DNA of 64,000 bases. It comes from Corallium rubrum (Eukaryota; Cnidaria; Anthozoa; Scleralcyonacea; Coralliidae). The translations under genes were made by a program, and so were the position numbers. This document shows, in pieces, positions 25,757 through 60,002 of this stretch (positions within the stretch are counted from its first letter, which is position 1; every line of letters begins with the position of its first letter). A model generated the notes under the pieces. The model searched no databases and was not told the origin of the DNA. It worked only from the letters and a program-made list of their open reading frames with translations. The stretch lies in the NCBI GenBank assembly GCA_964035015.1, contig OZ036004.1:9201468-9265467 (forward strand), given 5' to 3'.

Positions 25757-25849
25757 TTTGAATTTTAATATTCAACCAAATACCTCATCGAATTCGAAAC
25801 GGCAAATACCTACTTTCCCTTTTTGTCTCTGATTTGCTTTTCATTTGAC

Positions 25850-25937
25850 ATAACATTGATTAACATAACACTGATTAACATAACATTGATTAACATAACA
25901 TTAATTAAGATAACATTGATTAACATAACATTGCTTA
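25850..25937 (-). repeat. 15-bp repeat in gene C 3' UTR, about 6 copies
   Basis: Minus-strand units AATGTTATGTTAATC directly downstream of the stop. Gene D has about five units at 42897-42972 and gene B two to three related ones. Confidence 0.8.
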
Positions 25938-25973
25938 TAGTAAGTGTCTGTCTGATTTCCGTCCCAGGCTCTT

Positions 25974-36614
<10,641 letters not shown>

Positions 36615-36651
36615 TCTTGTATATAGACTGAGATGGATCTTCGCTGAGTTG

Positions 36652-36662
36652 GTGTATATAAG
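36652..36662 (-). promoter_or_regulatory. possible TATA box of gene C
   Basis: On the minus strand CTTATATACACC lies about 40 nt before the preferred ATG. Gene D has CTTACATACACC at the same place. If this is the promoter element, D has lost its best TATA match. Confidence 0.3.
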
Positions 36663-36847
36663 AGTGCGATGTGCTTTCACCGACAACTATACAAAGACAC
36701 GTCCGAGATGAAAACAGTAGTTATGTGTTTACAAGCACTGTAAACAACTTTATACAGACTCTGTGACAAAGTATTCTTATTTCTTTACGGAAATGTTTTA
36801 AATAGTAAGTAAAGACATAAAAACAAGCTCAATTGGCCAGGGACGTA

Positions 36848-37535
36848 AGTGGGTTAACCCGCACATATGGGATCGGAAGTGACGTCATAGGGGTGTGCGC
36901 ACAGGCTGACGTCACAGGGGTGTGCACCCGGGGGTGACGGCATCATTTTTGCGCACGTACGCGTACGTACGCACACGTACGCGATATCATCAAATTCCCC
37001 GTAAATTCTTTTTTTCGGAATAAAGAACACAATGCTTATAGTTTTCATTGAGATACCATTACTACTGCATAAATATGGATACGAAGATTACGGAATGCCG
37101 AACTATAGCCGAACTAACGAGTTTGGAAAACATGTATGTCTTGAGCGAGTACGAACAGGGTTTAGTGTTTGAGAGGAAAGTGGAATTAATTACTCGTTCG
37201 CTCGAGTGGGGAGTCGAAAATGAACAACTTGGGTTAACAGCGAACCTTACGGATTCCTGGACACCAGAACAAAGACAACAGTTTTTGATGGACTGGCAAG
37301 ATGATGAGGCATTGCTACAGAACGAACGATTAGGGCTCGCTTCAAACCATATGGATTCTTGGACCCCTGAACAACGAGAAAATTTCATGATGGATTGGCA
37401 AGACGACGAACCTTTGCTACAGACTGGCCGTGGGGAGAAGAGATCAATCGACGACGTAGACGATGGTGCAAGTACATCTGAACAGGTTAGCGGAGCCGTT
37501 CATTTTTGTGAGATGAGAAGATGAGCACATGCTCA
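36848..37535 (+). repeat. left terminal inverted repeat of the mini-element
   Basis: The outer 200 bp include GACGTCA/TGACGTC motifs and an ACGTACGCGTACGTACGC palindrome (about 36955-36983), then the arm gene and GAGCA/TGCTC repeats. Compared with the right arm it has 31 extra bases at about 37049-37079. Confidence 0.85.
37075..37524 (+). CDS. arm gene, left copy: protein with tandem WTPEQR repeats
   Basis: ATG of MDTKITECR at 37075; the frame is open from 37048. 149 residues, acidic. Two consecutive repeats of about 38 residues share DSWTPEQR, F(L/M)MDWQDDE and LLQ; a diverged first unit precedes them (FERKVELITRSLEWGVENEQ). The C-terminus is GEKRSIDDVDDGASTSEQ and a basic end. I do not recognise the family. 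The protein part shared by both arms is identical, which suggests recent conversion between arms or selection. Confidence 0.65.
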   Translation: MDTKITECRTIAELTSLENMYVLSEYEQGLVFERKVELITRSLEWGVENEQLGLTANLTDSWTPEQRQQFLMDWQDDEALLQNERLGLASNHMDSWTPEQRENFMMDWQDDEPLLQTGRGEKRSIDDVDDGASTSEQVSGAVHFCEMRR

Positions 37536-37625
37536 TAACTGCTCTGAACACTTGCTCATTTGCTCATAACTGCTCATGAGCACTTGCTCATTTGCTCATA
37601 TGGCCCGATCAGGCCCGATAGAAGG
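37518..37625 (+). repeat. GAGCA/TGCTC repeats, short left version
   Basis: About two to three units of CTTGCTCATTTGCTCATAAC, then TATGGCCCGATCAGGCCCGA. The right arm has the same motif expanded to about eight units (38690-38935). Confidence 0.85.
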
Positions 37626-37742
37626 TACGGCTTAACTCTGGTGTACATTTTTTTTCTTCAAGGACTTATTATTGCTTAAAAAATGAAACAAGACACAATA
37701 CAATTTTGATAAATTTTTATTTCACATAAGCATTACATCGAT

Positions 37743-38303
37743 TCACTGATCATCATCACTATCTGAAAAACGTCCTTGATCTTCTAAAAGCTGTTTCAAA
37801 AGAAACTTTCTTTTGTCAACCGCTGCAGATAAAGCTTCATCAGGATCAAACGAGTCTTCGTTCACAAGTGTCTGCTTCGTTTCCATGATCTTTCCATGCA
37901 CAGGATCCTTTTTAAGTGCTTTCATCCAACGTAAATTATCCACGTAAACGTCAGCGAATTCTTTCTGAAGTTCAGGGAGAATTTTTTCAAAGGCTTTCTG
38001 CTTAGCTACACTTTCTTCTTGCCATTCCATTTGCAACGTTTTTAATAGTTCATCATATTCTGGCCGAACCGTCACTTTTGCATCGTCAATCATGGTTGCC
38101 CAAGGATCAATCTCTTCCTTTATTTCACCATCATCTTCGGAACTCTGACTGTTTTCATCATACGACGAGCTTGACATTTCTTCATCAGATTCCATATCAG
38201 GCTCCTCAGTGTCAGTGTATTCCCTTGACGGACAATAATCGTTTTCGTGCCGTCTTAGATTATAGCCTTTACTAAACATTTTCCCACAATATTGGCAGTT
38301 CAT
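37743..38303 (-). CDS. zinc-finger protein of the mini-element, 186 aa
   Basis: N-terminal finger C3-x2-C6-x12-H19-x4-C24 (NCQYCGKMFSKGYNLRRH), a C2HC type. A very acidic low-complexity stretch (about 30-65) is followed by a helical, charged region with DPWATMIDDA, WMKALKKDPVHGKIM and FDPDEALSAAVDKRKFLLKQ. Similar N-terminal-finger proteins occur in many invertebrate genomes, from memory, often near mobile elements. A minus-strand AATAAA follows at about 37711. DNA binding is likely; its exact role is unknown. Confidence 0.7.
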   Translation of the reverse strand: MNCQYCGKMFSKGYNLRRHENDYCPSREYTDTEEPDMESDEEMSSSSYDENSQSSEDDGEIKEEIDPWATMIDDAKVTVRPEYDELLKTLQMEWQEESVAKQKAFEKILPELQKEFADVYVDNLRWMKALKKDPVHGKIMETKQTLVNEDSFDPDEALSAAVDKRKFLLKQLLEDQGRFSDSDDDQ

Positions 38304-38380
38304 TCTTTCAGCTCAGACAACCTGTAAATGACGAGTAGGGACGGAAAGTCCTTATTAATAAACACCACTTGATTTTTGGA

Positions 38381-38590
38381 CTAGGAATTTCTTTCGTCCA
38401 TGCTTTCTATAGTTATTTCAACTTTAGCAACCGGTTTTTGTCGATCATTCTCTAACGTATTTAATCTTGCTTGAGTAAGATATGGCTGCCTTTTCTCGCG
38501 AGAAAGTTGATGAACATCAGCCAAATGGTTGGATAGCTTTACCAAACTTTGTTTCACACATAAGGGACAATCTTTACGTCTTCGTGGCAT
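38381..38590 (-). CDS. small zinc-finger protein of the mini-element, 69 aa
   Basis: A basic start (MPRRRKD) is followed by C8-x2-C11-x10-H22-x4-H27 (CPLC..LSNHLADVH), one C2H2 finger. It lies 77 bp upstream of the 186-residue gene on the same strand, so both could be exons or cistrons of one transcript. TTACAG-like sequence just before the larger ORF may be an acceptor. Confidence 0.6.
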   Translation of the reverse strand: MPRRRKDCPLCVKQSLVKLSNHLADVHQLSREKRQPYLTQARLNTLENDRQKPVAKVEITIESMDERNS

Positions 38591-38689
38591 GTTTCGAAAT
38601 GAAGTTCTCTGATTCGCAAGCGCGTGTAATATAACTCATAAAATGACATTTAGACGTCTAGTCAGCAATCGGGCCATCGGGCCTGATCG

Positions 38690-38935
38690 GGCCATATGAG
38701 CAAATGAGCAAGTGCTCATGAGCAGTTATGAGCAAATGAGCAAGTGCTCAGAGCAGTTATGAGCAAATGAGCAAGTGCTCATGAGCAGTTATGAGCAAAT
38801 GAGCAAGTGCTCAGAGCAGTTATGAGCAAATGAGCAAGTGCTCAGAGCAGTTATGAGCAAATGAGCAAGTGCTCAGAGCGGTTATGAGCAAATGAGCAAG
38901 TGCTCAGAGCAGTTATGAGCATGTGCTCATCTTCT
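38690..38935 (-). repeat. 30-31-bp minisatellite, about 8 units
   Basis: Units ATGAGCAAATGAGCAAGTGC plus TCA(T)GAGCAGTT. The motif also lies at the inner edge of the left arm in fewer copies, so the arms differ in length by copy number. Confidence 0.9.
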
Positions 38936-39571
38936 CATCTCACAAAAATGAACGGCTCCGCTAACCTGTTCAGATGTACTTGCACCATCGTCTACGTCGT
39001 CGATTGATCTCTTCTCCCCACGGCCAGTCTGTAGCAAAGGTTCGTCGTCTTGCCAATCCATCATGAAATTTTCTCGTTGTTCAGGGGTCCAAGAATCCAT
39101 ATGGTTTGAAGCGAGCCCTAATCGTTCGTTCTGTAGCAATGCCTCATCATCTTGCCAGTCCATCAAAAACTGTTGTCTTTGTTCTGGTGTCCAGGAATCC
39201 GTAAGGTTCGCTGTTAACCCAAGTTGTTCATTTTCGACTCCCCACTCGAGCGAACGAGTAATTAATTCCACTTTCCTCTCAAACACTAAACCCTGTTCGT
39301 ACTCGCTCAAGACATACATGTTTTCCAAACTCGTTAGTTCGGCTATAGTTCGGCATTCCGTAATCTTCGTATGAAAACTATAAGCATTGTGTTCTTTATT
39401 CCGAAAAAAAGAATTTACGGGGAATTTGATGATATCGCGTACATGTGCGTACGTACGCGTACGTGCGCAAAAATGATGCCGTCACCCCTGGGTGGACACC
39501 CCTGTGACGTCAACCTGTGCGCACACCCCTATGACGTCACTTCCGATCCCATATGTGCGGGTTAACCTACT
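38925..39571 (-). repeat. right terminal inverted repeat of the mini-element
   Basis: Inverse of 36848-37535. The outer 200 bp differ from the left arm at about six positions, but the coding part is identical. Confidence 0.85.
38927..39328 (-). CDS. arm gene, right copy: start region deleted
   Basis: Identical in sequence to the left copy from MENMYVLSEY to the stop (133 residues). A 31-bp deletion (between TTTTCA and TACGAAG) removes the upstream ATG, so translation would have to start at the internal Met. Only the left copy looks full length. Confidence 0.65.
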   Translation of the reverse strand: MENMYVLSEYEQGLVFERKVELITRSLEWGVENEQLGLTANLTDSWTPEQRQQFLMDWQDDEALLQNERLGLASNHMDSWTPEQRENFMMDWQDDEPLLQTGRGEKRSIDDVDDGASTSEQVSGAVHFCEMRR

Positions 39572-40400
39572 GACGTAGCCAGGATTTTGAAAAGGGGGCA
39601 GCCGAAATCAAAATAAATTTTTAGAGGGGTCCGGGGGAATGCTCCCCCGGGAAATTTTGAAATCGAGAGTCGCTGAAATGCCATTTCCTGGCTTTTGGAG
39701 GAAGATTTTACGGACTCTAAAGGTTAAAAAGCGTCATAAAATACTCAAAACACGCAAACGTCACATAGATACTCAAAATGCATACACTCAGTAGATTGAA
39801 TACACTGTTCACAGTTTATTTCCTGAGACAATGGCATATTGCATCAGTTTTGTAGTTACATGTCTGTTGTTTTATATCAAAAGGGGGAAGCCACGGCTCC
39901 CCCCTGGCTACGTCCCTGCAACTGGCTCCGTAAACAACTCGTTGGTCATTGGAACGTGTTGTACCAAACCTGTTTTCAAAACTGGTTTGACACATCAAAC
40001 AAAGTGTCGGATCTTTGCATCATGAGGGAAGTTCTATAGACCCTCTGATAAGTTTAAATTAAATTAAAGTATACGTCATTTTCTGCACTTGACGTCAAAC
40101 AGAGCGAAATTCCCATATTGAACATGGAAGGAAAACTGGAGAACCCAGCGAAAAACCCTCGAAACACAGAAGAGATCAACTACAACTCTACTCACACGAG
40201 TTGCAAGCTCGACAACGGGTCTGTATAAAACGTACACTGCTAGACAATCTTCGTTTAAACTTTAATCAGACAACTTCGAGAATTACATCAACATCAGACC
40301 AGAGTTCAGTTCGAGGAAGACCTCTTCCAGGAATTTAATCACGTGATGTCAATAATAAACTAGGATCCAGTTCTCAACAGGGTCATTCGCCGCAAGTGGT

Positions 40401-40764
40401 CACGTGTTGCCAACCTTGGGATTTTATCCCAAGATCTTGGGATTTTTTGAAGGAGTTGGGATTTTTTTTTGATTTTTCCAGAGCAAACAGTTTTGGTTTT
40501 AAAAAGCTGATTTCAATGTTAATTATTATTTTTTTAATTCACGTGATAATTAGATCATACTCAGTGATCATACTCCACTGCCTGTATATTCCTTCGTGGA
40601 AACGTGAAAAACAATTTAAATGTAAAAATTTGATATCATATAATGAGAACCGATTGTTTATAGGAGAAGTGTGAACCATGGGATTTTTTGGTAAAAAATA
40701 GGGAATCTTGGAATATTTTCAGACCTTTATTGGGATTTTTACGAAACTTGACTTGGCAACACTG
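40401..40764. mobile_element. hAT-like MITE, CAGTGTTGCCA ends, copy 1
   Basis: Left end GTGTTGCCAACCTTGGGATT, right end GACTTGGCAACACTG; interior rich in GGGATTTT/AAAATCCC. Same family as 53600-54060, where an 8-bp duplication is visible. It was present before the 17-kb duplication (57476-57948). Confidence 0.75.
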
Positions 40765-40904
40765 ACCCATTCAAGTAGCACCGCTAACAGCGCACGCCAC
40801 CCGCCTGCTACTCAATCAAATTTCTGTCATTTTGACTGAGTTAAGGATTTCTCAAACGAGTCCAGCACAGACTGACAACCAAATCGAGTAGCATCTACTC
40901 TGTG

Positions 40905-40935
40905 ATGAAGGCCTCCGCTTGAAACATCAGTATTT
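40905..40935 (+). ncRNA. hammerhead-like core in a dispersed repeat
   Basis: TGTGATGAAGGCCTCCGCTT then GAAACATCAGTATTTTC. The first core bases are degenerate compared with 15465. The copy in unit 2 is at about 58090-58118. Confidence 0.4.
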
Positions 40936-41297
40936 TCTTATCAAAGCTATTCTCAGCAATTTACCACATATAAATTACATGCAATTTACCATATTTTGTG
41001 TATGTATATAACTAACTATACTACTCTGCATGGAATTAGATTGTAGCACTTGAAAAAAAAAGCCATATATTCAATTTGGTTTTCAATAATATCATGTATA
41101 CCATTTTTCCAAAATTAGAAGTTCTGATTCTAAATGAGAAATAACTTTTAAGCGTTACTATATATAGGGATATAATACACGAACAACGTTTTATACAGTT
41201 TTAAAATATCCGCTAAACACGTTTTATTAATATTCTTGGATGCATAAGCCGTAAACTAAATTCTAACACTGAGTAACAATGGAAACATAATTCTAAC

Positions 41298-41432
41298 GTT
41301 TCTCTCTGACGAAGGGCCTTCGCTCGAAACGTTAGACTCCTACGTTCTCTGTTTCGGCAGTATATCTAACCTTGCTATATTTCGATTGTTGTCTACACTG
41401 CCTGCGCAGCACGCTACTTTTATTACAATAAT
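41298..41432 (+). mobile_element. monomer of the hammerhead-like repeat
   Basis: CTCTGACGAAGGGCCTTCGC, TCGAAACGTTAGAC, TTTCGGCAGTATAT, ATTTCGATTGTTG and the tail CGCTACTTTTATTAC. It is the unit that forms the inverted dimer at 2858-3077. The unit-2 copy (about 58478-58910) is split by a MITE. Confidence 0.7.
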
Positions 41433-42766
41433 TCTAATAAATTTGTTGGGTTTTTTCATTTCGAATATTTACCTCTTGGAGTAGGACTGGAGAATGAATT
41501 TTCGACTGATTACTCCTTTCTTCTTCGTTATGTGTTGTTAGCGAGACACCAGCGAGTGAAACTGCGGCAAACCTGTCATTGAGGTTTCCAATACTGGGCA
41601 TTAAGTAAAACCGCAACCTGTATTGTTATATATCAAGTGTCAAAGTCCGTTTTTCTAGCTCTCTGATTGGGCGAACGGTCCCTCGCGTGGCGGTCCGAAA
41701 ATCGTGATGTTTCCTGCGTAACCCATGGCAGCGGGCAACATTACATTTATTTTTCCCTTGGGAAAAATATAAAAATCGGAAGTAGATGGTCAGGTTCAGT
41801 TTGTCTTTGTTTTTTCCAGTTTTCCTTCATTAAAAACAATGTCTGAAAGTTTTGCTCAACATTTTCGTTGTCATTCGATACTTCATAGGCTTCGGATATA
41901 TAACAAAACAGTTATTTACTGGTACCTCGGCTTCGCCTCGGGAAACAACGGTCGTCTCGGGGTCACAACACAGTTTCCCTCAGTGCCAGTAAATAAGTGT
42001 TTATTATAAGCTAAAATGAAAGGGATAAGTCAGGGTAATATATGACCGCTTATTTAGGTACTGATAACCCAATAGATAATCACCTTAAGGTGAGGTAATA
42101 CGGACAACAACACTATTCAACTTGCAACGCAACTTTGTTTCAGCAATTTGTTGCTTGTATTACTTCGCCAACCTCGTCCCCTCCACGTTGGGAGGTCGGC
42201 GAAAATGGCCCTGGCATCGGCTGGTCACGTGACACCCAGAATTTTGGGGTGTTTTGGCAAGAAAATTTATGCGGTCTTTGTGTTTCGTTTTTGTATAATA
42301 CGTATACATGAATAAGAAACAAGAAATATTTAACGCTCTGTCGAATCACTCATGTGAACCTTTATCATAAATGCAACTGGCTAGCATTATTCATCATGAT
42401 ACTCCCCACGATTATCCAGGATACATTTAAATGTCGGGAAGAAACATATATCTAATGTTGTTCTTGACTTTAACCAAAGCTATCGTTACAATTCTTTGGA
42501 TGAACTTCGCAGAGTGGATTTATTGCAATTCATATTTTGATGAATAAATTACACTGTATCTGAATAAATCAAGTTTTTAAACTGGCCAATCCGATTATAG
42601 AATCGATCAGCCGATGCCAGGGCCATTTTCGCCGACCTCCCAACGTGGAGGCAAAATGCCCTGGGGACGAGGTTGATTACTTCGCCTTAAGCTTCATGTG
42701 TGAGGGTTTTTCACCGGATTCTCCGGTTTCCCCCAGAAAATCAACACTGTATTTCCCGCCATGGAG

Positions 42767-42772: not shown

Positions 42773-42896
42773 CTACGAACTAGTTCCATCAAGGAGTGAG
42801 GGTCAGTACTAATCCCCATATTCAACGAAATACCTCCTCGAATTCGAAACGGCAAATACCTACTTTCACTTTTTGTCTCTGATTTGCTTTTCATTT

Positions 42897-42972
42897 GACA
42901 TAACATTGATTAACATAACATTGATTAACATAACATTGATTAACATAACATTGATTAACATAACATTGCTTA
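42897..42972 (-). repeat. 15-bp repeat in gene D 3' UTR, about 5 copies
   Basis: Same AATGTTATGTTAATC unit as gene C, one copy fewer and more uniform. Confidence 0.8.
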
Positions 42973-43008
42973 TAGTAAGTGTCGGTCTGATTTCCGTCCC
43001 AGATTCTT

Positions 43009-56242
<13,234 letters not shown>

Positions 56243-56354
56243 TCTTGTATATAGACTGAGATGGATCTTCGCTGAGTTGGTGTATGTAAGAGTGCGATGT
56301 GCTTTCACCGACAACTATACAAAGATACGTCCGAGATGAAAACAGTAGTTATGT

Positions 56355-56545
56355 GTTTAGAATGTCGCTGGTTTCTGGAATCAGAAGGAGACCTCAAAGA
56401 TGCAAACATCCGACACTTTTCCTGCGCGCATGCGCGAAGTTACCTTGACAACGAAGTTCATCACGAAATATGCGTGAAAAAACATGAGGTGATAGCCGAG
56501 TGCTTCACTAGCTCTGAGTCGTCTTGTAACTTCCCAAGCACTGTA
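56355..56545. other. 190-bp segment upstream of gene D, missing upstream of gene C
   Basis: Lies about 115-300 bp upstream of the gene D start. Copy 1 joins its flanks directly (ATGTGTTTACAAGCACTG near 36725). It holds a plus-strand frame with a CLECRWFLESEGDL start and several Cys and His, without a recognised domain, and a GCGCGCATGCGCG palindrome. Either an insertion in copy 2 or a deletion in copy 1. Confidence 0.5.
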
Positions 56546-56640
56546 AACAACTTTATACCGACTCTGTGACAAAGTATTCTTATTTCTTTACGGAAATGTT
56601 TTAAATAGTAAGTAAAGACATAAAAACAAGCTCAACTGGC

Positions 56641-56997
56641 CAGGAACGTAGCCAGGATTTTGAAAGGGGGGGGGGGGGTAGCCGAAATCAAAATAAATTA
56701 TTAGAGGGGTCCGGGGGAATGCTCCCCCGGGAAGTTTTGAAATCGAGAGTCGCTGAAATGCCATTTCCTGGCTTTTGGAGGAAGATTTTACAGACTCTAA
56801 AGGTTGAAAAACGTCATAAAATACTCAAAACACGCAAACGTCACATAGATACTCAAAATGCATACACTCAGTAGATTGAATACACTGTTTACAGTTTATT
56901 TCCTGAGACAATGGCATATTGCATCAGTTTTGTAGATGCATGTCTGTTGTTTTATATCAAAAGGGGGAAGCCGCGGCTCCCCCCTGGCTACGTCCCT
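56641..56997. mobile_element. hAT-like element, uninterrupted copy
   Basis: Starts CAGGAACGTAGCCAGGATTT after CAACTGGC and ends GGCTACGTCCCT. A deletion of about 25 bp in copy 2 removed the right-hand CAACTGGC. It is the empty site for the Polinton-like insertion of copy 1. Confidence 0.85.
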
Positions 56998-57475
56998 CGT
57001 CATTGGAATGTGTTGTACCAAACCTGTTTTCAAAACTGGTTTGACACTCCAAGATCACGTGCGGCGGCTACATCAAACAAAGTGTCGGATCTTTGTATCA
57101 TGAGGGAAGTTCTATAGACCCTCTCTGATAAGTTTAAATTAAAGTATACGTCATTTTGTGCACTTGACGTCAAACAGAGCGAAATTCCCAAATTGAACAT
57201 GGAAGGAAAACCGGAGAACCCAGCGAAAAACCCTCGAAACACAAAAGAGATCAACTACAACTCTACTCACATGAGTTGCAAGCTCGACAACGGGTCTGTA
57301 TAAAACGTACACTGCTAGACAATCTTCGTTTAAACTTTAATCAGACAACTTCGAGAATTACATCAACATCAGACCAGAGTTCAGTTCGAGGAAGACCTCT
57401 TCCAGGAATTTAATCACGTGATGTCAATAATAAACTAGGATCCAGTTCTCAACAGGGTCATTCGCCGCAAGTGGT

Positions 57476-57948
57476 CACGTGTTGCCAACCTTGGGATTTT
57501 ATCCCAAGATCTTGGGATTTTTTGAAGGAGTTGGGATTTTTTTTTGATTTTTCCAGAGCAAACAGTTTTGGTTTTAAAAAGCTGATTTCAATGTTAATTA
57601 TTATTTTTTTAATTCACGTGATAATTAGATCATACTCAGTGATCATACTCCACTGCCTATGTGTTCGTTTGATTTAGACAAGATGAAGTACTCTATCCAA
57701 ATGACATATCACTGATATAGTGGGCTCAGATTGCTATAAACGGAAAAAAATTGGTACTCACAAAACGGTATATACCTTCGTGGAAACGTGAAAAACAATT
57801 TAAATGTCAAAATTTGATATCATATAATGAGAACCGATTGTTTATAGGAGAACTGTGAACCATGAGATTTTTTGGTAAAAAATAGGGAATCTTGGGATAT
57901 TTTCAGACCTTTATTGGGATTTTTACGAAACTTGACTTGGCAACACTG
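57476..57948. mobile_element. hAT-like MITE, CAGTGTTGCCA ends, copy 2
   Basis: Counterpart of 40401-40764, about 110 bp longer in the centre (57660-57775), where copy 1 has a deletion. Confidence 0.75.
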
Positions 57949-58532
57949 ACCCATTCACTAACCGGAGCACCGCTAACAGCGCACGCCACCCGCGTGCTAC
58001 TCAATCAAATTTCTGTCATTTTGACTGAGTTAAGGATTTCTCAAACGAGTCCAGCACAGACTGACAACCAAATAGAGCAGCATCTACTCCGTGATGAAGG
58101 CTTCTGCTCGAAACATCAGTATTTTCTTATCAAAGCTATTCTCGGCAATTTACCACATGTAAATTACATGCAATTTACCATATTTTATGTATGTATATAA
58201 CTAACTATACTACTCTGCATGGCATTAGATTGTAGCACTTGAAAAAAAGCCATATATTCAATTTTGGTTTTCAATATCATGATACCATTTTTCCAAAATT
58301 AGAAGTTCTGATTCTAAATGAGAAATAACTTTTAAGCGTTACTATATAGGGATATAATACACGAACAACGTTTTATACAGTTTTAAAATATCCGCTAAAC
58401 ACGTTTTATTAACTGATATTCTTGGATGCATTATGAGCCGCAAACTAAATTCTAACACTGAGTAACAATGGAACATAAAAGGGCCTTCGCTCGAGACGTT
58501 AGACTCCTACGTTCTCTGTTTCGGCAGTATAT

Positions 58533-58835
58533 CCATAGTCAATCGAGCCTGAATGGCCTGGAAACTCGGCAAACTTCAAAGCGCCTATAATGAGCTGTGA
58601 TTTTATGTTGAACCGTACCTTGCACCGTGCACATCCTTTGTTTTAGGTTTATTAATATTTAAATAGCACGGTTGAGTGATTGAACTGAAACGTTGCTATT
58701 GGACAATTCGTTCATTATACTAAAATACAATGTGTTCAGTGACCATGCACCGTGCACAAAAATGCATAAGGGCGAACAAAAAGATAGACCAAAGACTTTA
58801 GCTGAGTTTCCAGACCATATCTCGATTGACTATGG
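58533..58835. mobile_element. MITE inserted into a hammerhead-like repeat
   Basis: 303 bp with ends CCATAGTCAATCGAG / CTCGATTGACTATGG, flanked by TATAT on both sides; copy 1 reads CAGTATATCTAACC without it. The interior has two CACCGTGCAC motifs. Confidence 0.8.
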
Positions 58836-59401
58836 TATATCTAACCTTGCTATATTTCGATTGTTGTTTCTACACTGCCTACGCAGCACGCTACTTTTAT
58901 TACAATAATTCTAATAAATTTGTTGTTTTTTTTCATTTCGAATGTTTACCTCTTGGAGTAGGAATGGAGAATGAATTTTCGACTGATTACTCCTTTCTTC
59001 TTCGTTATGTGTTGTTAGCGAGACACCAGCGAGTGAAACTGCGGCAAACCTGTCATTGAGGTTTCCAATACTGGGCATTAAGTAAAACCGCAACCTGTAT
59101 TGTTATATATCAAGTGTCAAAGTCCGTTTTTCTAGCTCTCTGATTGGGCGAGCGGTCCTCGCGTGGCGGTCCGAAAATCGTGATGTTTCCTGCGTAACCC
59201 ATGGCAGCGGGCAACATTACATTTATTTTTCCCTTGGGAAAAATATAAAAATCGGAAGTAGATGGTCAGGTTCAGTTTGTGTTTGTTTTTTCCAGTTTTC
59301 CTTCATTAAAAACAATGTCTGAAGGTTTTGCTAGGCTTGATATATAACAAAACAGTTATTTACTGGTACCTCGGCTTCGCCTCGGGAAACAACGGTCGTC
59401 T

Positions 59402-59611
59402 TATCCTGAATCTTTTCGCTTATATCCAAGATAAATCACAAAAGGTTTTAAAAGTTTTATTCACAGTTCACAGTTCACAGATTAGTTTAATACTCTCACT
59501 CGAAGCACGGCCGCACAACAACAACTCAGTTCCCACGGTCTTCAGCTTAGGACTATGCGTGTTATTTCCGGCGGAAATACGTAGTCTGTTTTTAGCTCAA
59601 TCTCGAACAGT
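59402..59611. other. about 200-bp indel between the two 17-kb copies
   Basis: Copy 1 reads AACGGTCGTCTCGGGG near 41960; here about 200 bp separate CGTCT from TCTCGGGG. It includes TTCACAG three times in tandem. Element ends are not clear. Confidence 0.5.
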
Positions 59612-60002
59612 CTCGGGGTCACAACACAGTTTCCCTCGGTGCCAGTAAATAAGTGTTTATTATAAGCTAAAATGAAAGGGATAATTCAGGGTAATATATG
59701 ACCGCTTATTTAGGTACTGATAACCCAATAGATGATCACCTTAAGGTGAGGTAATACGGGCAACAACACTATTCAACTTGCAACGCAACTGTGTTGCAGC
59801 AATTTGTTGCTCGTATTACTTCGCCTTTAGCTTCATGTGTGAGGGTTTTTCACCGGATTCTCCGGTTTTCCCCAGAAAATCAACACTATATTTCCCGCCA
59901 TGGAGTTTATTCTACGAACTACACGCGTAAAAACGCACAACTTGTTCACGGTTGTCAACAGGCGTGAACAATGTTGTGCTGCTCGCCATGAACAAGTTGT
60001 CA

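Follow-up and report, generated by a model that had tools for sequence, protein, structure and literature searches.

The window analysed here, a stretch of 64,000 nucleotides of Corallium rubrum DNA (contig OZ036004.1), contains at 36848..39571 a mobile element that is very probably a non-autonomous Polinton (Maverick) living in the same genome as its candidate helpers. The assignment is made because its ends and its 6-bp target duplications are shared with long elements carrying a protein-primed-type DNA polymerase (PolB) and an rve-type integrase. The common ends, the common duplication length and a co-resident element with open polymerase and integrase frames were seen directly; replication by the helper PolB and insertion by the helper integrase would occur in trans.

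Polintons are defined by AG termini and a 6-bp target duplication. The element starts with AGTGGGTTAACC and ends with GGTTAACCTACT, and its AG...CT termini and long terminal inverted repeats are those of a non-autonomous Polinton. Its size of 2724 bp falls short of the autonomous form, which measures approximately 15-20 kb and has genes for capsid, protease and ATPase. An earlier note on this DNA, made from the sequence alone, had described the element, its GACGTA duplication and its long inverted repeats, all of which were confirmed, with arms of 728 and 696 bp. Four open reading frames (ORFs) were found: 149 amino acids (aa; plus strand, left arm), 130 aa (minus strand, right arm) and two central ones on the minus strand, of 186 aa (ZF1) and 69 aa (ZF2). 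No rve-type integrase is among them, this gene being present in the helper, and the element has only the first 140-149 codons, approximately, of a protein-primed-type PolB frame.

Ends and target duplications shared with long elements

The genome (474 Mb in 312 contigs) was searched with the left arm. At least 43 matches were obtained, 40 of the 450 first-look candidates having been scored, and in many cases two matches in inverted orientation lay 2-3 kb from each other. The terminal pattern AGTAGNTTAN{8,25}GGAAGTGACG was found 125 times in the forward and 120 times in the reverse orientation; the reversed control gave 1 and 0. Pairing of ends was performed with 95 of the first 100 listed places (245 in total), from contigs C1, C5, C8 and C12, leaving out one listed place on C9 and four on C13. 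These 95 ends formed 34 pairs, 25 shorter than 9 kb and nine longer (9.5-23.6 kb). The small pairs had a median length of 2965 bp; 22 held a listed ZF1 match and none held PolB. A PolB N-terminal query located the matching clade inside six of the nine long pairs and also at C13:11136063-11150562. Among the 57 ZF1 places on C1, C8 and C12, 36 had an exact-pattern end within 3.5 kb and the other 21 had none.

Twenty small copies were examined for target duplications. The 6-bp duplication was exact in all 11 in which both ends were recognised, namely the window copy and ten further ones, including a copy interrupted by other DNA. For the long elements, ends were fetched for eight of the ten pairs then listed, C13 included, and the duplication was exact in seven; this comprises five of the six PolB-bearing pairs and two pairs with no listed match to the PolB clade. 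The target sequences vary between copies.

The candidate helper examined throughout, C12:5585567-5600443, was covered in six separate pieces. It resembles the window element in its AGTAGNTTA...GGAAGTGACG ends, its TGACGTCA/GTGCGCACA motifs, its exact 6-bp duplication and the 5' end of polB. It differs in its length of 14.9 kb, in carrying PolB, integrase, protease and ATPase- and capsid-like ORFs, in having inverted repeats of 147-149 nt only, and in lacking ZF1, ZF2 and the 31-bp repeats described below. The family PF03175 matched this helper above the cut-off; across the genome, 76 of its 1079 candidates were scored and gave at least 199 matches. The integrase frame of the helper matched rve at an E value of 3e-13 as well as a chromodomain, and the adenain-type (adenovirus-type) protease matched Peptidase_C5 with 22.9 bits against a Pfam cut-off of 21.3. 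One ORF shows, by eye, a Walker-like motif, its AAA matches being sub-threshold only. Three ORFs of 442, 250 and 157 aa are putative capsid or core genes by position; none scored above the Pfam cut-offs, and those of 442 and 250 aa matched no PHROG. A sister element on C18 has a frame matching PF03175 at an E value of 2.7e-50, with protease and GRF zinc-finger ORFs toward its other end.

The earlier note had proposed a non-autonomous Polinton relative mobilised in trans, and had suggested looking for full-length relatives with identical ends and, in these, for PolB and rve. Such relatives exist in the same genome, with 6-bp duplications, with PolB in six long pairs and with rve in the one examined throughout. 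The same-ended helpers support the proposal, the step in trans itself being inferred. A different duplication length, different ends or a relative with a cut-and-paste transposase, the outcomes it had named as contrary, did not appear. The retained termini would be substrates for the protein-primed PolB and the rve-type integrase, and insertion by the helper integrase would produce the 6-bp target duplication.

Superfamilies of DNA transposons with a 6-bp duplication include Dada and IS3EU. Ginger2 elements likewise use 6-bp target sites, as stated in an excerpt of PMC2836005, and the size and the long inverted arms, taken alone, are compatible with a cut-and-paste transposon of such a superfamily that resembles Polintons by chance. 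The same excerpt gives Ginger2 TGTNR ends and AT-rich RTATAY targets, as against AGT[AG]GNTTA ends and varied targets here. In addition, the arms contain the PolB N-terminus, and elements with the same ends carry PolB, one of them with rve. On ends, targets and PolB content this explanation was ruled out, and we regard it as extremely improbable.

Some further observations were made at the long elements. The right part of the C18 element has a 122-aa ORF (L060, 2796-3164) with a weak match to the Bcl-2 family (E value of 0.044, below the cut-off). Beyond the polB end there is an additional segment of approximately 780 bp (L059, 1-783; C18:1029900-1030682). It occurs at six genomic sites, of which three or more are PolB loci, and was not found as an inverted pair. 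The region C53:1038-1049 kb was considered as a helper of intermediate length and was ruled out, since by eye it is a small element that other DNA has interrupted. The inserted DNA (L021, 2719-3717; L022, 2018-4298) contains, also by eye, a RecQ-type-helicase-like ORF and others, and is probably another mobile element.

Arms, polB fragment and insertion site

The arms pair over 206 nt with 97% and over 497 nt with 100% complementarity. A segment of 32 bp of the left arm (around 37047-37080) is missing from the right arm; because it includes the ATG of the frame, an internal ATG serves as the start in the right arm. The earlier note had described in both arms a duplicated gene with WTPEQR repeats. 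The repeats are indeed present in both arms and do not constitute a separate gene: in the C18 element the WTPEQR stretch continues without a stop into the polymerase, and in the C12 helper both lie in a single 1387-aa frame. An independent WTPEQR gene was thus ruled out and, because the stretch runs in frame into PolB, the arms are best read as carrying the truncated 5' end of polB. The terminus and outer motifs of the left arm are related to the ends of the long elements. At the DNA level the arm reaches 95.7% identity (483 bp) with two PolB elements, and its outermost 160 bp are less similar to the long PolB elements than the rest. A Polinton lineage of the same genome would be the source of both arms, each being a copy of its polB end.

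The polB 5' stretch is at one end only in the C13 element, C1:47789201 and C12:11416403. It is at both ends of C1:59659215-59675090, a long element with a match to the PolB clade and with inverted repeats of approximately 690 bp (90.8%), which may connect helpers and small elements structurally.

Arm divergence was compared in 16 elements (C17, L023, L024 and L027 were left out). It averaged 0.90% within an element (range 0-2.1%) and 2.74% between elements. This is as expected if the arms are equalised when a new copy forms, for example through a panhandle intermediate, which may serve in formation or repair; duplication of a whole end would likewise give initially equal arms. The symmetry about the truncated polB end points to copy-back: most probably this end was copied back in inverted orientation, which would yield the long symmetrical ends.

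Window positions 25768-42169 and 42818-59825 form a tandem duplication with an offset of approximately 17 kb and 84-97% identity in pieces, and each copy has its own, different insertions. At the counterpart position in the other copy the empty site reported by the earlier note was found (Table 1). Since this matching site is empty, the sequence comparison indicates that the element most likely inserted after the duplication, precise excision being less probable. The insertion point is 10 bp into a stretch bounded, by eye, by CAGGGACGTAGCCAGG inverted ends, and this host stretch is probably another transposon.

Table 1. Positions in the window of the element, its parts and its insertion site
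Feature	Position	Strand	Basis or remarks
Complete element, called a non-autonomous Polinton	36848..39571	none	2724 bp; ends, duplication, empty site
Left target-site duplication, GACGTA	36842..36847	none	sequence; identical to 39572-39577
Right target-site duplication, GACGTA	39572..39577	none	exact match to the left one
Left terminal inverted arm	36848..37575	+	728 bp; terminus AGTGGGTTAACC, TGACGTCA / GTGCGCACA motifs, then polB 5' end
Right terminal inverted arm	38876..39571	-	696 bp; 32 bp shorter than left, without the polB ATG
WTPEQR-repeat ORF	37075..37524	+	149 aa; read as truncated N-terminal end of helper-type PolB
Second truncated PolB N-terminal ORF	38927..39319	-	130 aa from first ATG
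Left array of 31-bp repeats	37545..37599	-	two matches to the 23-base search unit
ZF1	37743..38303	-	186 aa; C2H2-like finger at the N-terminus, then an acidic linker and a C-terminal part with four predicted helices
ZF2	38381..38590	-	69 aa; residues 1-47 resemble small ORFs, part of which neighbour polB of other lineages
Right array of 31-bp repeats	38688..38937	+	palindromic TGAGCANNTGCTCA cores; seven search-unit matches
Empty target site in tandem copy, single AACGTA	56640..56656	+	reads ccaggAACGTAgccagg, no insert
Target stretch with CAGGGACGTAGCCAGG inverted ends, split by the element	36838..39918		parts 36838-36847 and 39578-39918; by eye

A gene cassette between the arms

The two central ORFs had been called zinc-finger genes in the earlier note. 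For ZF1 this stands in part, as its match to zf-C2H2 (20.8 bits) is under the curated cut-off of 25.2. ZF2 matched no zinc-finger family in the profile search, so that its label rests on appearance. ZF1 was scored at 150 places in the genome (213 candidates), with 83-100% identity; by hand count, 130 places are stop-free and 20 contain stops.

Protein relatives elsewhere numbered 206 for ZF1 (120 listed, 43-87% identity) and 17 for ZF2. Four longest-contig values (75906, 89605, 24323 and 1132) are common to both lists, which suggests, from the shared list values and not from the contigs themselves, that ZF1 and ZF2 are kept together as a pair. In a 40-member alignment of ZF1 the finger is present in many members, not in all, and the C-terminal part is conserved, with predicted helices. 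The structure prediction (pLDDT 70.6, pTM 0.41) was too weak for naming a fold. Against solved structures the ZF1 profile found only zinc fingers, and the viral contigs scanned with ZF1 alone and with its alignment gave no relative. When a distant relative of ZF1 served as the query against the genome (150 of 193 candidates scored), the matches were, by eye, the known places or fragments of them and one outlier. The latter, C39:7083162-7083632, is a lone divergent match (32%) within an open frame of 333 aa, which may be a gene of the host or part of another element.

Residues 1-47 of ZF2 are 57-66% like small ORFs at 63 places, at least 23 of which are within 7 kb of a PolB match, only listed PolB matches having been used. 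Given these related ORFs near PolB, ZF2 probably came from Polintons of other lineages.

No ZF1 or ZF2 was found by tblastn (E values up to 1) in the six pieces covering the C12 helper, and stretches of approximately 3.5 kb at 29 other PolB loci gave only a 21-residue ZF2 match at an E value of 0.12. The window element has the 31-bp repeats in both orientations, as do 16 of the 17 other small copies examined (L024 has them in one orientation only); the repeats had no match in 58.6 kb of partly overlapping pieces in or beside long elements. Because ZF1, ZF2 and the repeats are lacking in the helper pieces, the central core appears, from these searches, to be a unit distinct from the examined helper.

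The same core also occurs behind another type of arm. At C1:19128491, of which the left part was read and where ZF1 matches from residue 20, the arm contains another zinc-finger-like fragment, not polB, and is followed by the same 31-bp repeat and core. A search with this arm (40 of 201 candidates scored) listed 40 arm places, 31 of which have a listed ZF1 match no more than 3 kb away. Of the nine that do not, six lie at most 7 kb from a PolB of the clade (four at most 1.5 kb), and the arms near PolB occur in either orientation. Because arms of this second type lie near ZF1 in 31 of 40 places and near PolB in six others, one cassette seems to be joined to different Polinton-type ends. The termini of C1:19128491-19131032 itself are unlike each other (AGTAGATTACCCC and AGTAGCTTAATCC), so this copy may be a hybrid of the two arm types.

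Small copies at C17:89300-93500 and C37:4575600-4578550 have the same inverted flanks past the usual end, which may be longer arms or an assembly feature. In C17 the inverted flanks are identical along the full 1000 bp compared, which takes in part of the arm. C17:89.9-92.9 kb was for this reason left out of the arm and selection counts; C37:4575600 was kept in spite of the same flanks. After removal of duplicate loci, C17 and frameshifted rows, and for the arms also of long elements, the within-genome selection analysis retained 17 of 22 rows for ZF1, 15 of 19 for ZF2 and 31 of 44 for the arm. The ratios were 0.84 (singleton) and 0.35 (shared) for the arm and 0.50 (singleton; shared not computable) for ZF2, from counts too small to decide.

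Several observations weigh against the Polinton reading, or against a functional cassette within it. In the C18 sister element the polB frame has a stop at codon 51, upstream of the stretch that reads through into the polymerase. Three of the 25 small pairs are without a listed ZF1; among the nine long pairs, two hold neither a listed match to the PolB clade nor ZF1, and one holds two ZF1 matches and no PolB. Nine of the 20 small copies gave no recognisable end pair within the fetched stretch, and one PolB-bearing long element has a duplication with one mismatch (ACCGGA/ACCGCA). By hand count, 25 of the 150 ZF1 places match only from residue 20, the finger being absent. The ZF1 ratios (0.51 singleton, 0.34 shared) come from few sites and do not separate selection from drift. 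Finally, transposition in trans is an inference and not an observed event.

The element could also be an ordinary internally deleted Polinton in which only the ends matter, the small ORFs being inert passengers that are open because the copies are young. The low divergence of the arms within elements, the ZF1 ratios and the stops in 20 ZF1 places are all compatible with this. The 206 ZF1 relatives with conserved positions, the list values pointing to joint retention of ZF1 and ZF2, and the presence of the cassette on two arm types argue against it, and we consider it possible, if on balance doubtful.

At the other extreme, ZF1 and ZF2 would bind the 31-bp repeats and act in trans on helper Polintons, suppressing or hijacking them or gating their replication or packaging, as in a strict satellite. 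ZF1, ZF2 and the repeats do co-occur and are absent from the covered helper, small pairs outnumber long ones (25 against nine among the pairs formed), and both proteins have relatives elsewhere. Against it, the ZF1 profile matches zinc fingers only among solved structures, part of the family has no finger, and the scanned viral contigs held no ZF1 relative. We hold this to be unlikely. We give an equally low weight to a genomic satellite family in which the gene pair, with repeats bound by one of its products, would travel as a cassette on any available Polinton end (the polB end in type A, another end in type B), being replicated, integrated and possibly packaged by helpers whose copy number it may limit. 

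In the non-autonomous Polinton proposed here as the main reading, ZF1 would most probably, though this is a weaker step, bind the 31-bp repeats and act for the element, for example in control of replication, packaging or silencing; our high confidence in the Polinton assignment does not extend to this binding.

Relation to known systems

One genome contains multiple copies of both the dependent element and its candidate helper, and the PolB and integrase frames of the examined helper are open. Two questions therefore become approachable: whether Polintons mobilise DNA in trans, and which end sequences are sufficient.

Copy-back defective genomes of protein-primed viruses are symmetrical molecules with one end duplicated. 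The element resembles them, by analogy, in its symmetry; it differs in also carrying genes and in being multicopy in a genome.

In the open literature searched, subscription papers and Repbase Reports lying outside the search, the phrases non-autonomous (or nonautonomous) Polinton or Maverick, miniature Polinton and Polinton-derived MITE (miniature inverted-repeat transposable element) were absent. Titles and abstract openings contained no non-autonomous Polinton with conserved genes of its own, which does not establish absence from print. The suggestion of the earlier note that the class had not been described did not hold: a Repbase-style non-autonomous name, zebrafish Polinton-1N1_DR, is in print as a promoter example in an excerpt of PMC9341505. 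By its name, it belongs to the same class of non-autonomous Polinton derivatives (PMC9341505, excerpt). The general class is already named; what is new here is a gene cassette with relatives elsewhere on a non-autonomous Polinton, and for this cassette we call the element a new variant.

Tlr elements of Tetrahymena were once proposed as non-autonomous Polinton derivatives, according to PMC4028283, which itself argues for their ancient divergence and states that they encode virion proteins. The proposed status is shared with our element, and these two features are not (PMC4028283).

Transpovirons and virophages, as presented in an excerpt of PMC3671162, are similarly small, have in some cases zinc-binding proteins and depend on a larger virus; their hosts and helpers are different, and the likeness is one of analogy. 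If ZF1 and the repeats were functional, Polintons would have a counterpart of such virophage-type parasites.

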